NCBI RefSeq assembly: GCF_003574315.2
Contig: NZ_AP025739.1
Location: forward strand, 5,580,001-5,644,000
DNA length: 64,000 bases
Direction of reading: 5' to 3'
Source of the DNA: Capsulimonas corticalis
GTDB taxonomy: Bacteria; Armatimonadota; Armatimonadia; Armatimonadales; Capsulimonadaceae
Part shown: one piece after another, positions 49,736 to 52,895 of the stretch
Position numbering within the stretch: position 1 is the first letter of the stretch
How the letters are laid out: each line of letters opens with the position of its first letter
The notes under the pieces: generated by a model
Seen by the model: the letters and a program-made list of their open reading frames with translations, nothing else
Databases searched by the model: none
What the model was told of the DNA's origin: nothing
Position numbers and translations under genes: made by a program

Positions 49736-50740
49736 ATGTCTTTGATCCAAACAACGCCGCTGCAGCCGCTGCGGATCGGGCCGATTACGATCGACACGCC
49801 GCTGGTGCTGGCCCCCATGGCCGGCGTCACCTCCCACGCCTTCCGTTTGCTCTGCAAGCAGTATGGGGTCGGCCTTGTCGTGACCGAGCTGCTTTCCTCC
49901 CACGCAATTCACTATAAGAACGCCAAGACGTTCGGCATGTTCGACTGGAACGACGCCGAGCGCCCGGTTTCCGTGCAGTTGTTCGGCGGCGATCCGGCGA
50001 TGATGGCGGAGGCGGCGCAAGTGGTCGAGGCCGCCGGCGCGGATATCGTCGATCTGAATATGGGATGCTGGGTGCCGAAGGTCGCGAAGACCGGCGCGGG
50101 CGCCACGCTGCTCAAAGATGTCTGCCTCGCGCAGAGCGTCGTTAAGGCGATGGTGGATGCCGTGAAGATCCCGGTGACGGTCAAAATCCGTTCGGGATGG
50201 GATTCGACGCAGACGACGGGAATCGAATTCGCCCAGCGGGCGCAGGACGCCGGCGCGGCCGCCATCGCGGTCCATGCGCGGTTTGCGAGCCAGGGCTTCA
50301 CGGGACACGCCGACTGGTCGATCATTCGACGCGTGAAGGATATCGTGACGATCCCGGTCATCGGCAACGGCGATGTGGAGACGGCCGAGGACGCCAAGCG
50401 GATGTTCGAGGAAACGGGCTGCGACGCCGTCATGATCGGACGCGCGGCGATGGGCAACCCCTGGATCTTCGCCGACGTCAAGCGCTTCCTCACCACCGGC
50501 GAGCACCTACCGCCGCCCACGCTCGACGAGCGCATCACGGCGTCCCTCTTTCATCTCACGACCATGGCCGCCGATCCGCATGTCGGCGAGGAGCGCGCCG
50601 TCAAGGAGATGCGGGGATTGATCACGCATTACTTCAAAGGCTTCAACGGAGTTTCAGCGCTGCGAGCTCTGCTCGTCAAAGCCAACAGCATTCAGGAAGT
50701 GACTGATTTATTGCATCATGAAAGGCGACGCAGCGCATGA
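49736..50740 (+). CDS. dusB: tRNA-dihydrouridine synthase (DusB type)
   Basis: The 334-residue FMN enzyme reduces uridine in the tRNA D-loop. It shows 'LVLAPMAGVTSHAFRLLCK', the catalytic Cys in 'LNMGCWVPKVAKTGAGATLL', 'VKIRSGWDS', 'IAVHARFASQGFTGHADW' and 'VMIGRAAMGNPWIF'. The final helical domain ends near the stop, which overlaps the next gene start by 4 bases (ATGA). It is the first gene of a small operon with two unusual membrane proteins. Confidence 0.95.
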   Translation: MSLIQTTPLQPLRIGPITIDTPLVLAPMAGVTSHAFRLLCKQYGVGLVVTELLSSHAIHYKNAKTFGMFDWNDAERPVSVQLFGGDPAMMAEAAQVVEAAGADIVDLNMGCWVPKVAKTGAGATLLKDVCLAQSVVKAMVDAVKIPVTVKIRSGWDSTQTTGIEFAQRAQDAGAAAIAVHARFASQGFTGHADWSIIRRVKDIVTIPVIGNGDVETAEDAKRMFEETGCDAVMIGRAAMGNPWIFADVKRFLTTGEHLPPPTLDERITASLFHLTTMAADPHVGEERAVKEMRGLITHYFKGFNGVSALRALLVKANSIQEVTDLLHHERRRSA

Positions 50741-51690
50741 TCACGGAACCGACGACCGAAGCGGCGGCGCCGAAGCCGTCCGTCTCTTATCACCGATGGC
50801 TGCAAACACCTGTTGCCGTCGGAGCCGCATATTTCGCGTATAACGTTGCGATCCCTAACGTTCCAATCGAAAAACTTCGCCTGCCACAGTCAGTACTGTC
50901 GATCCTTGTTATCGCATCCACTCTGGTCTTTATGTTCCTGCTGCTTTGGGTCCCGCGCGCCATAATCGCGCGGGAGTGGAACACAGCCAAATGCATTCAA
51001 GGCGCACTTTTATTTGGAGTGCTTTGGGCAGTTACGACATTCGCTTGGCATGCTAAACACACATATCATGTGAGACCAAGTATTCGAGGTTTAATGCTGG
51101 CTGTTTCGCTGGCGTTCTTTGGGGCGCTGCTCTCACGGATTGTTCGCGAAGCCAAGATGCTCCTGCCAATTGCATTAGTGGCTATGGTGATCGATGTACT
51201 AGGGGCTATGATGCCGAGGGGATTTACCAGGGACATCTATGAGCAACACCCAGGCGTCATTCCTAGCTTCTCAGTTCCTATGCCTGGCATTGGCTCCCTG
51301 GAACCCATCTCATATGTTGGACCTGGCGATGCGCTCTTTATTGCTTTCTTTTTTGGAATTGTCCAGCGTTACCGTCTAAATATGTCTGGCACATTCTGGA
51401 TGATGTTCGGATTGCTTTCAGCAGCCATGCTGGCGGTCAATGCTGGTGTGGGAAATATTGCGGCGCTTCTTCCCATGGGGATTGCCGTGATCGTGGCGAA
51501 CTTTCGCTACTTTAAGTTCGATCGATCTGAAATGTTTGCAATGATTTACGCCGGCATTCTCGCTGTCGTGCTGGCAGCCGGCTTTTTCGCCTTCTCACAT
51601 AAGCAATTTTTCGGGAAGAAGCCGTCACCCGCGCGCGCCCAAGGGACGCTCCCTCTCCAGCAAACTGCGCCAAGCGCCAAAAAGAATTAA
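50737..51690 (+). CDS. Presenilin/SPP-like GxGD membrane protein, copy 1
   Basis: The 317-residue protein has about eight to nine membrane helices. Three spaced motifs match the presenilin/signal-peptide-peptidase layout: a membrane Asp (Asp153 in 'VAMVIDVLGAMMPRGF'), a GxGD motif 45 residues later (GPGD, Asp198, in 'YVGPGDALFIAFFFG') and a PAL-like segment another ~46 residues on ('ALLPMGIAV', 243-251). Human SPP has its two Asps 46 residues apart. Such enzymes cut substrates inside the membrane. The match is motif-level and no search was possible. Base use is less GC-biased than neighbours (more A/T third positions), which may mark recent acquisition. Its start overlaps dusB. Confidence 0.65.
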   Translation: MITEPTTEAAAPKPSVSYHRWLQTPVAVGAAYFAYNVAIPNVPIEKLRLPQSVLSILVIASTLVFMFLLLWVPRAIIAREWNTAKCIQGALLFGVLWAVTTFAWHAKHTYHVRPSIRGLMLAVSLAFFGALLSRIVREAKMLLPIALVAMVIDVLGAMMPRGFTRDIYEQHPGVIPSFSVPMPGIGSLEPISYVGPGDALFIAFFFGIVQRYRLNMSGTFWMMFGLLSAAMLAVNAGVGNIAALLPMGIAVIVANFRYFKFDRSEMFAMIYAGILAVVLAAGFFAFSHKQFFGKKPSPARAQGTLPLQQTAPSAKKN

Positions 51691-51711
51691 ACACGAGAGG
51701 CGACGGAGCGC

Positions 51712-52620
51712 ATGACCAGCCAACGCTTTCGCATCATTAATCTTGCCGCGGTCAAAGAAAATCCGTGGCCGTATCGCGCGCTGATCTTTTCCCTGATCTA
51801 TCTCGCCTTTGATTGTCTTCTGCCGCTGATTCGTCTCGATCCAAGGCATCTCTCCAGGCCGCAAATCGCCGGCCTGGTCATTCTTTCCACGCTCGCCTTC
51901 ATGCTGCTCCAGATGGCGATCCCGCGCGCGATTGTTGGAATGCGCTTGCCTGTCCGGCAATCCCTGGTAGGAGTGGCGCTTTCCGCGCTGATCTGGTGGC
52001 TTTGCGTGGTGGTGAAGATCCCGTTTCGGGAAATGCCCTATGCGCTCGCCGTAGGCGTGTTCCTGCTGGATAAAGCGCTGGTGGGGCTTTCGCTGACGGT
52101 CGCGCTGGCGTTTCTGGGCATGATGCTCTCGGTGATTATCCGCGAGCCGAAACTGCTTTTGCCCATTGCGCTGGTGATCATGGCGATCGATGTGGTGGGA
52201 GTTTTGACGAATATCGGCTTTACGGCCAACACCATCGCGCAGCATCCGGAAGTCGTCCACCGTGTTTCCGTGGCGATGCCGTCGGTAGGCGGACTTCAGC
52301 CGCAGGCGTATGTCGGCCCGGGCGACGCGCTGTTCATTCCGTTTTTCTTCGGGATCGTCGAGCGATTGCGCCTGAATATGCGCGGGACATTCTTCACGAT
52401 GTACGGCCTGCTGGCGCTGGCGATGATCCTCGCGGTGATTGGAGTAGGAAATATTCCGGCGCTCTTCCCCATGGGTTTCGCCGTCGTGCTGGCCAATTCC
52501 AAGCACTTTAAGTTCGATCGATCGGAAGTATTTGCGATGATTTACGTGGGAGGGTTAGCCACCGCCGCCGTGCTGGGCTTTTTCCTCTTCACGCACACGC
52601 ATCTCTTCCACGCGCATTAA
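51712..52620 (+). CDS. Presenilin/SPP-like GxGD membrane protein, copy 2
   Basis: The 302-residue paralogue of the preceding protein has the same topology. Asp160 lies in 'LVIMAIDVVGVLTNIGF', GPGD (Asp205) in 'YVGPGDALFIPFFFG' with the same 45-residue spacing, and a true PAL motif at 249-251 ('NIPALFPMGFAV'). The shared 'GVGNI', 'KFDRSE' and 'FAMIY' segments show that the two arose by duplication. Codon use is typical of the genome here, unlike copy 1. It starts 21 bases after copy 1. A protease role is inferred only from motifs and topology. Confidence 0.68.
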   Translation: MTSQRFRIINLAAVKENPWPYRALIFSLIYLAFDCLLPLIRLDPRHLSRPQIAGLVILSTLAFMLLQMAIPRAIVGMRLPVRQSLVGVALSALIWWLCVVVKIPFREMPYALAVGVFLLDKALVGLSLTVALAFLGMMLSVIIREPKLLLPIALVIMAIDVVGVLTNIGFTANTIAQHPEVVHRVSVAMPSVGGLQPQAYVGPGDALFIPFFFGIVERLRLNMRGTFFTMYGLLALAMILAVIGVGNIPALFPMGFAVVLANSKHFKFDRSEVFAMIYVGGLATAAVLGFFLFTHTHLFHAH

Positions 52621-52637
52621 GACAAAGAGGATAAACC

Positions 52638-52895
52638 ATGGAAACACGAGTTGACGGAGAAAAGCGCCGCGTTCTGCTGCTGGAGACCGATGAGCGTCCG
52701 GGGCTCGTCGCGGCTCTGGCGGCGGAATGCGCGGCGCAGAATGTGTCGTTAGAGATTACCACTGGGCCGGGGCACGTTTTGATTACCTTTGTCGCCACCG
52801 ACGACCGGGTTGACGTTTTGTCCGGGGCCTTGCGGAGCGTTCCCGGGGTTACCGGGGTTTCGCCGTACCTTGTCGCCACGCTTGTGGGGCGCTAA
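52638..52895 (+). CDS. ACT-domain protein
   Basis: The 85-residue protein consists of one ACT-like beta-alpha-beta-beta-alpha-beta unit ('RRVLLLETDERPGLVAALAA', 'NVSLEITTGPGHVLITFVA', 'LSGALRSVPGVTGVSPYLV'). ACT domains bind small ligands, mostly amino acids, and regulate partners. It is 17 bases after the second GxGD protein, on the same strand. Its 3' 147 bases overlap a gene on the other strand (DUF5658-like), which is unusual. Confidence 0.75.
   Translation: METRVDGEKRRVLLLETDERPGLVAALAAECAAQNVSLEITTGPGHVLITFVATDDRVDVLSGALRSVPGVTGVSPYLVATLVGR

Follow-up and report, generated by a model that had tools for sequence, protein, structure and literature searches.

Can a bacterium carry two presenilin-like proteases, one directly behind the other? 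The question is raised by a pair of genes in Capsulimonas corticalis, a member of the Armatimonadota whose genome is a single contig of 7.65 Mb. The stretch analysed, which we call the window, is 64,000 nucleotides long (NZ_AP025739.1, positions 5,580,001 to 5,644,000), and the feature coordinates below count from its first letter. A sequence-only reading of the window had proposed that the pair encodes intramembrane proteases of the presenilin/signal peptide peptidase (SPP) type. Presenilin and SPP are the enzymes behind Alzheimer's amyloid and signal-peptide clearance. The proposal finds support in the catalytic aspartates, in the ranking of fold matches, in the match of one relative to the family model PF04258 and in a profile match among proteins of known structure. 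Taken as a whole, the best explanation, and one we consider very likely, is that these are A22-type intramembrane proteases with a putative SPP-like orientation and signal peptides as probable substrates. The presenilin/SPP reading is largely borne out; given the orientation we propose, "SPP-like" is the better fit.

The gene pair and its putative catalytic residues

The two open reading frames lie where the sequence-only reading had placed them, and their products are 47% identical across 270 amino acids. Their main features are as follows.

50737..51690, + strand: copy 1, putative presenilin/SPP-like intramembrane aspartyl protease (open reading frame, 317 amino acids)
51190..51204, + strand: copy 1, first catalytic motif IDVLG (Asp153), in an aligned column invariant in 108/108 homologues
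51319..51330, + strand: copy 1, GPGD motif (residues 195-198, Asp198), from the sequence and the family alignment
51460..51474, + strand: copy 1, PAL-type motif AALLP (from residue 242), with A where 102/108 members have P
51712..52620, + strand: copy 2, putative presenilin/SPP-like intramembrane aspartyl protease (open reading frame, 302 amino acids)
52186..52200, + strand: copy 2, first catalytic motif IDVVG (Asp160), within helix 146-165 (sequence, alignment, AlphaFold)
52219..52263, + strand: copy 2, residues 170-184, short TM6a-like helices following Asp160 (AlphaFold), positioned as TMD6a of PSH (PMC9282858)
52315..52326, + strand: copy 2, GPGD motif (residues 202-205, Asp205), at the start of helix 203-218 and preceded by a short strand, 200-201 (alignment, AlphaFold)
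52456..52470, + strand: copy 2, PAL motif PALFP (from residue 249), at the start of a short helix, 251-261 (alignment, AlphaFold)
52519..52527, + strand: copy 2, R-S-E with Glu272, invariant in 108/108 members

Members of A22 are recognized by a catalytic aspartate in a transmembrane helix, a second in a GxGD motif, and a PAL motif. In copy 2, Asp160 falls within predicted transmembrane helix 146-165 of the AlphaFold model; both copies carry GxGD, and the third motif reads PAL in copy 2 and AAL in copy 1. All these elements had been picked out from the sequence, together with a distance of 45 residues between the two aspartates, and 45 it is in both copies. Aligning 108 distinct homologues (in copy 2 numbering) was more telling. 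D160, G202, D205 and E272 do not vary in any of them, and because of this the motifs in the window are more than chance. The check on homologues that had been suggested therefore comes out well: both aspartates are retained in 108/108 and the second motif is kept family-wide as G-x-[GA]-D. Around these fixed points there is some latitude. The aspartates are 43-59 residues apart across the family, the PAL-type site has P in 102/108, followed by A (73) or G (25), and L in 103/108, and the tyrosine that precedes the first aspartate in characterised A22 members (YD) is not conserved.

Position 204 is glycine in 60/108 and alanine in 48/108, and in families f14, f24, f9, f5, f2, f43, f35 and f36 every member sampled has GxAD. 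This position corresponds to Gly384 of presenilin-1, which a title cited in PMC7768045 calls required for presenilin-1 function. The region after the first aspartate, MMPRGF, had been likened to LCPKGP of presenilin. As a form of the first motif, however, MMPRGF is a poor one; relatives have, for example, VYDMFLVLTPVGP. Glu272 sits at the start of the last helix, and we know of no counterpart to it in presenilin or SPP.

A GxGD motif is also the mark of type IV prepilin and preflagellin peptidases (A24), themselves prokaryotic membrane diaspartyl proteases, and the pair might be diverged members of that family. We find this scarcely credible. Peptidases recognized by PF01478 are encoded at other loci in 80/81 genomes, in the window genome at 5725223 and 5926853, and a prepilin peptidase identity was rejected on account of these separate genes. 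The family has a PAL-type motif and is missing the GxGDxKL signature of A24, and no A24 structure is among the listed fold matches described below.

The residues bear on a second alternative, that the proteins have kept an A22 fold without the protease activity and act as a membrane chaperone-like or structural factor. The GxAD form would suit such a role, as would the additional invariant glutamate and a housekeeping-like conservation with no obvious partner. Pseudo-enzymes normally lose their catalytic residues, however, and here the aspartates have survived in every homologue over a deep and divergent tree, and neither the PAL site nor the strand that precedes GxGD has been lost. We judge a loss of activity improbable.

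Kinship with peptidase family A22

Copy 2, used as a phmmer query against the Protein Data Bank (PDB), gave no match. One of its relatives, L152, scores 25.4 bits against PF04258 (Peptidase_A22B; cut-off 23.3, E 1.3e-5), in a match that spans both aspartates and extends into the PAL region; it is the only one to pass that cut-off, in 1/237 genomes. A profile of the catalytic core, drawn from 107 members and searched against 177,635 PDB sequences, returned a single match at E<=10, the C-terminal fragment (CTF) of presenilin-1 (E 0.0028), with GxGD aligned onto GLGD and PAL onto PAL, in register. The presenilin model PF01080 found nothing above its cut-off in the 237 genomes and 54 matches below it. 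Eighteen of these 54 places were fetched, partly picked for likely relevance; 12 proved to be the protease family, all at the two catalytic sites (e.g. IFLAVYDMFLVLTPVGPTSQLL and IGLGDFIFLA), and the other six were low-complexity or unrelated. PF06550, the model for archaeal SPP/PSH, had no match in 101 Armatimonadota genomes. Matches to INSIG (E 0.23) and to the nicotinic acetylcholine receptor (nAChR) were dismissed as noise. We hold it highly probable that the protease family is homologous to A22.

The predicted structures say much the same. AlphaFold models copy 2 with a mean confidence (pLDDT) of 91.9 and a predicted template modelling score (pTM) of 0.88, and a distant member with 95.2 and 0.91. 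The copy 2 model has eight long helices and a short PAL helix, in keeping with the 8-9 helices predicted from the sequence. Both models place a short helix after the first aspartate and a strand before GxGD, at positions matching TMD6a and the beta-2 strand of PSH (PMC9282858). In Foldseek searches of the PDB, ranks 1-13 for copy 2 are all presenilin-1 or SPPL2a; ranks 1-16 for the distant member are presenilin-1, presenilin-2, SPPL2a and PSH 4HYG, the last at 13 and 15. Presenilin-1 is rank 1 in both. The A22 matches reach a probability of 1.00 and the next fold stands at ~0.1. The one confident match in a viral library is a giant-virus signal peptide peptidase. A structural comparison had been proposed as the way to check the idea. 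The outcome supports it: presenilin, SPPL2a and PSH 4HYG are ranked as the nearest structures to two confident models, and other folds lag far behind.

Several results weigh on the other side and should be set down together. The window proteins match no Pfam or NCBIfam model, and the core-profile search of the PDB reported the presenilin CTF alone and none of the full-length presenilin chains. The Foldseek E-values exceed 0.01 and the template modelling (TM) scores are only 0.3-0.4, which suggests that the N-terminal part or the global packing of the models differs from that of A22 structures. The helix plan is altered: the catalytic pair follows on four helices, where presenilin has five, and one more helix comes after the PAL segment. 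GxAD replaces GxGD in 44% of members (e.g. L041, L043, L046, L049 and L047), and the family has no conserved partner that would point to a substrate.

Might an unrelated polytopic membrane family have arrived at its aspartates, GxGD and PAL by convergence or chance? The low TM-scores and weak Foldseek E-values would allow it, and hydrophobic families do yield false sequence matches, the nAChR among them. Against this, independent tests agree: PF04258 is passed above its cut-off, the sole PDB match is in register, and the PF01080 matches land exactly on the two catalytic sites. Two divergent members each give consecutive A22 structures as their top fold matches, with TM6a and the strands rightly placed. 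We regard convergence as highly improbable.

Orientation and proposed role

Which way round do these proteins sit in the membrane? Loops 2-3, 4-cat1, cat2-8 and PAL-last carry more lysine and arginine than the other set of loops in 100/103 sequences. By the positive-inside rule this distribution would put the catalytic loop outside, the side it occupies in SPP; in presenilin, conversely, the equivalent loop is cytosolic. The N terminus would then be inside, and the long outer loop would contain TM6a and the hairpin. PMC7768045 describes the topology of SPP as reversed relative to presenilin, and SPP as cleaving type II (N-in) proteins.

We propose the following mechanism. The product of each gene would be a polytopic aspartyl protease of the inner membrane, belonging to the presenilin/signal peptide peptidase superfamily (A22). 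Two aspartates, Asp160 of the fifth long helix and Asp205 of the GxGD or GxAD with which the next helix begins (Asp153 and Asp198 in copy 1), would activate water and cut a helix within the membrane. The substrate may be unwound, and then kept in strand form, by the TM6a-like helix, a beta hairpin ahead of GxGD, and the PAL segment, much as in substrate-bound gamma-secretase. With the catalytic loop outside, as in SPP, the likely substrates would be N-in (type II) segments: signal peptides that stay behind in the membrane once signal peptidase has cut and, possibly, N-in single-pass proteins.

The same fold can be read the other way. A presenilin-like orientation and action would have the proteins take type I substrates and make the second cut after shedding, in regulated intramembrane proteolysis. 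The best single sequence and fold matches include presenilin-1, and in some genomes the gene adjoins a GAF histidine kinase and an ANTAR regulator. Yet the charge counts put the catalytic loop outside in all but three of the 103 rows, the sole above-threshold family match is to A22B, that is, to SPP, and the regulator neighbours are not kept across the phylum. We consider a presenilin-like action unlikely.

To return to the SPP-like reading, whether the proteins work as bacterial signal peptide peptidases is a more finely balanced matter, and we would put it at about an even chance. Peptidases of the SppA type (S49) score above the cut-off in 41/81 Armatimonadota genomes; the window genome has no S49 match. 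The S2P/M50 family is universal in the phylum. A simple either-or replacement of SppA by the protease family was rejected, since both are missing from the f15 genomes.

Distribution and local history

Bacterial members of the superfamily had been called rare. Within the Armatimonadota this family is near-universal: a profile search finds it in 224/237 genomes and 136/140 genera, nearly always in one copy, and a single-query search gave matches in 172/201 genomes. In the tree of 108 members, sequences from the same sampled taxonomic family mostly group with each other, a sign of vertical inheritance. We had considered an archaeal-type PSH gained by transfer; with PF06550 silent in the phylum and the tree as it is, this was set aside. 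No family members were found on viral contigs or plasmids. When the GTDB genomes were scanned with a pattern, Armatimonadota alone came up, and the scan recovered 13 loci against at least 224 family-carrying genomes, a sensitivity so low that absence outside the phylum is not established by it. The few high-quality genomes without the family include G014, G028 and G042, from one genus of f15; others without it are G180 and G184, 1.5 Mb genomes from one small-genome genus of f14.

Among the genomes inspected, only that of Capsulimonas has a second complete adjacent copy. Three further features belong to this part of the account.

49736..50740, + strand: dusB, context only, upstream of copy 1
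51689..51715, + strand: duplicated dusB 3' end, K-HERRRSA-stop, immediately 5' of copy 2 (the true dusB ends in H-HERRRSA-stop)
52638..52895, + strand: small ACT-domain-like gene (open reading frame), context, downstream of copy 2

The dusB gene overlaps copy 1 by 4 bp (50737-50740), an overlap already visible to the sequence-only reading. The two copies are sisters in the family tree (support 100/97) and the end of dusB, a segment of 8 codons, is repeated before copy 2; it follows that the pair arose by local tandem duplication and that the dusB end was carried along. The tandem duplication first suspected from the sequence thus has both a tree and a scar to its name. Judged by the sequences, it is old enough for about half of the residues to have diverged. 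The deviating codon use of copy 1 is real too, its G+C content at third codon positions being 0.547, compared with 0.726 in copy 2 and 0.70-0.86 in the neighbours. Relaxed selection, expression or conversion may be the cause. A foreign origin of copy 1 is not supported, given its sisterhood with copy 2 and the dusB end between them.

Names of neighbouring genes were read off their sequences without family searches. On that footing, dusB adjoins the protease gene in Capsulimonadaceae relatives only, and the ACT-domain-like gene 3' of it is conserved in that family. Recurrent neighbours elsewhere are LeuS, the GAF histidine kinase, the ANTAR regulator and QueA: leuS lies directly 3' in several lineages (L035, L037, L042 and L082 among the examples), and the kinase-regulator pair lies 5' in others. 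A comparison of the neighbourhoods found no partner gene conserved phylum-wide, and an explanation by operon or partner was rejected, since no neighbour is kept across the phylum. Rfam and promoter scans gave nothing useful. A near-universal single copy without a conserved partner fits the housekeeping role that, along with the catalysis, orientation and substrates described above, we infer for the family.

Meaning and known relatives

The papers we found discuss prokaryotic relatives of presenilin and SPP as archaeal (PMC9282858 is among these papers), and we found no paper in the open-licence literature linking Armatimonadetes with presenilin or intramembrane proteases. What is new here is an A22-like bacterial family with a putative SPP-like orientation, an altered helix plan and GxAD forms. 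The fuller proposition is that a core gene of the Armatimonadota, near-universal and vertically inherited, represents a deep and separate branch within the presenilin/SPP superfamily. Its product would be a bacterial signal peptide peptidase, oriented like SPP, with its helices arranged differently and with naturally occurring GxAD sites, and in genomes that lack SppA, the window genome among them, it would be one of the main means of disposing of signal peptides. We put this forward tentatively, at somewhat less than an even chance. If true, the superfamily would not have archaeal roots alone among prokaryotes, and its known range would broaden to a near-universal bacterial family. Many small stand-alone proteins would become available for structural study of a medically important enzyme class, and families with alanine at the position of presenilin-1 Gly384 would let the role of the GxGD glycine be tested on natural variants. 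A second bacterial route of signal-peptide disposal would be suggested alongside SppA and RseP.

How, finally, does the family compare with systems already known? A24 (PF01478) shares with it the character of a GxGD diaspartyl membrane protease of prokaryotes, but is represented by separate genes in the same genomes and by no structure among the listed fold matches. PSH/MCMJR1 (4HYG, PF06550) is likewise a stand-alone prokaryotic protein of similar size, with TM6a and the beta-2 strand at matching positions (PMC9282858). The Armatimonadota family differs from it in its GxAD variants and, because PF06550 finds nothing in the 101 genomes, would be a separate branch. Presenilin (A22A, PF01080) supplies the sole PDB sequence match of the core profile and the top Foldseek rank, and some members resemble it around both aspartates (VYDMFLVLTPVGP and IGLGDFIF, for example); the family is without presenilin's large loop between the aspartates, probably has the opposite orientation, and reaches the PF01080 cut-off in none of the 237 genomes. 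Set against SPP and SPPL (A22B, PF04258), it is bacterial, probably N-in with four rather than five helices before the catalytic pair, and has a helix after PAL, an invariant Glu272 and GxAD in 44% of its members. With them it shares two membrane aspartates in adjacent helices, GxGD, a PAL-type motif, a short loop between the aspartates (43-59 residues in the Armatimonadota family) and, going by PMC7768045, what is probably the same orientation of the catalytic loop; one member scores above the PF04258 cut-off, and SPPL2a is among the top fold matches.

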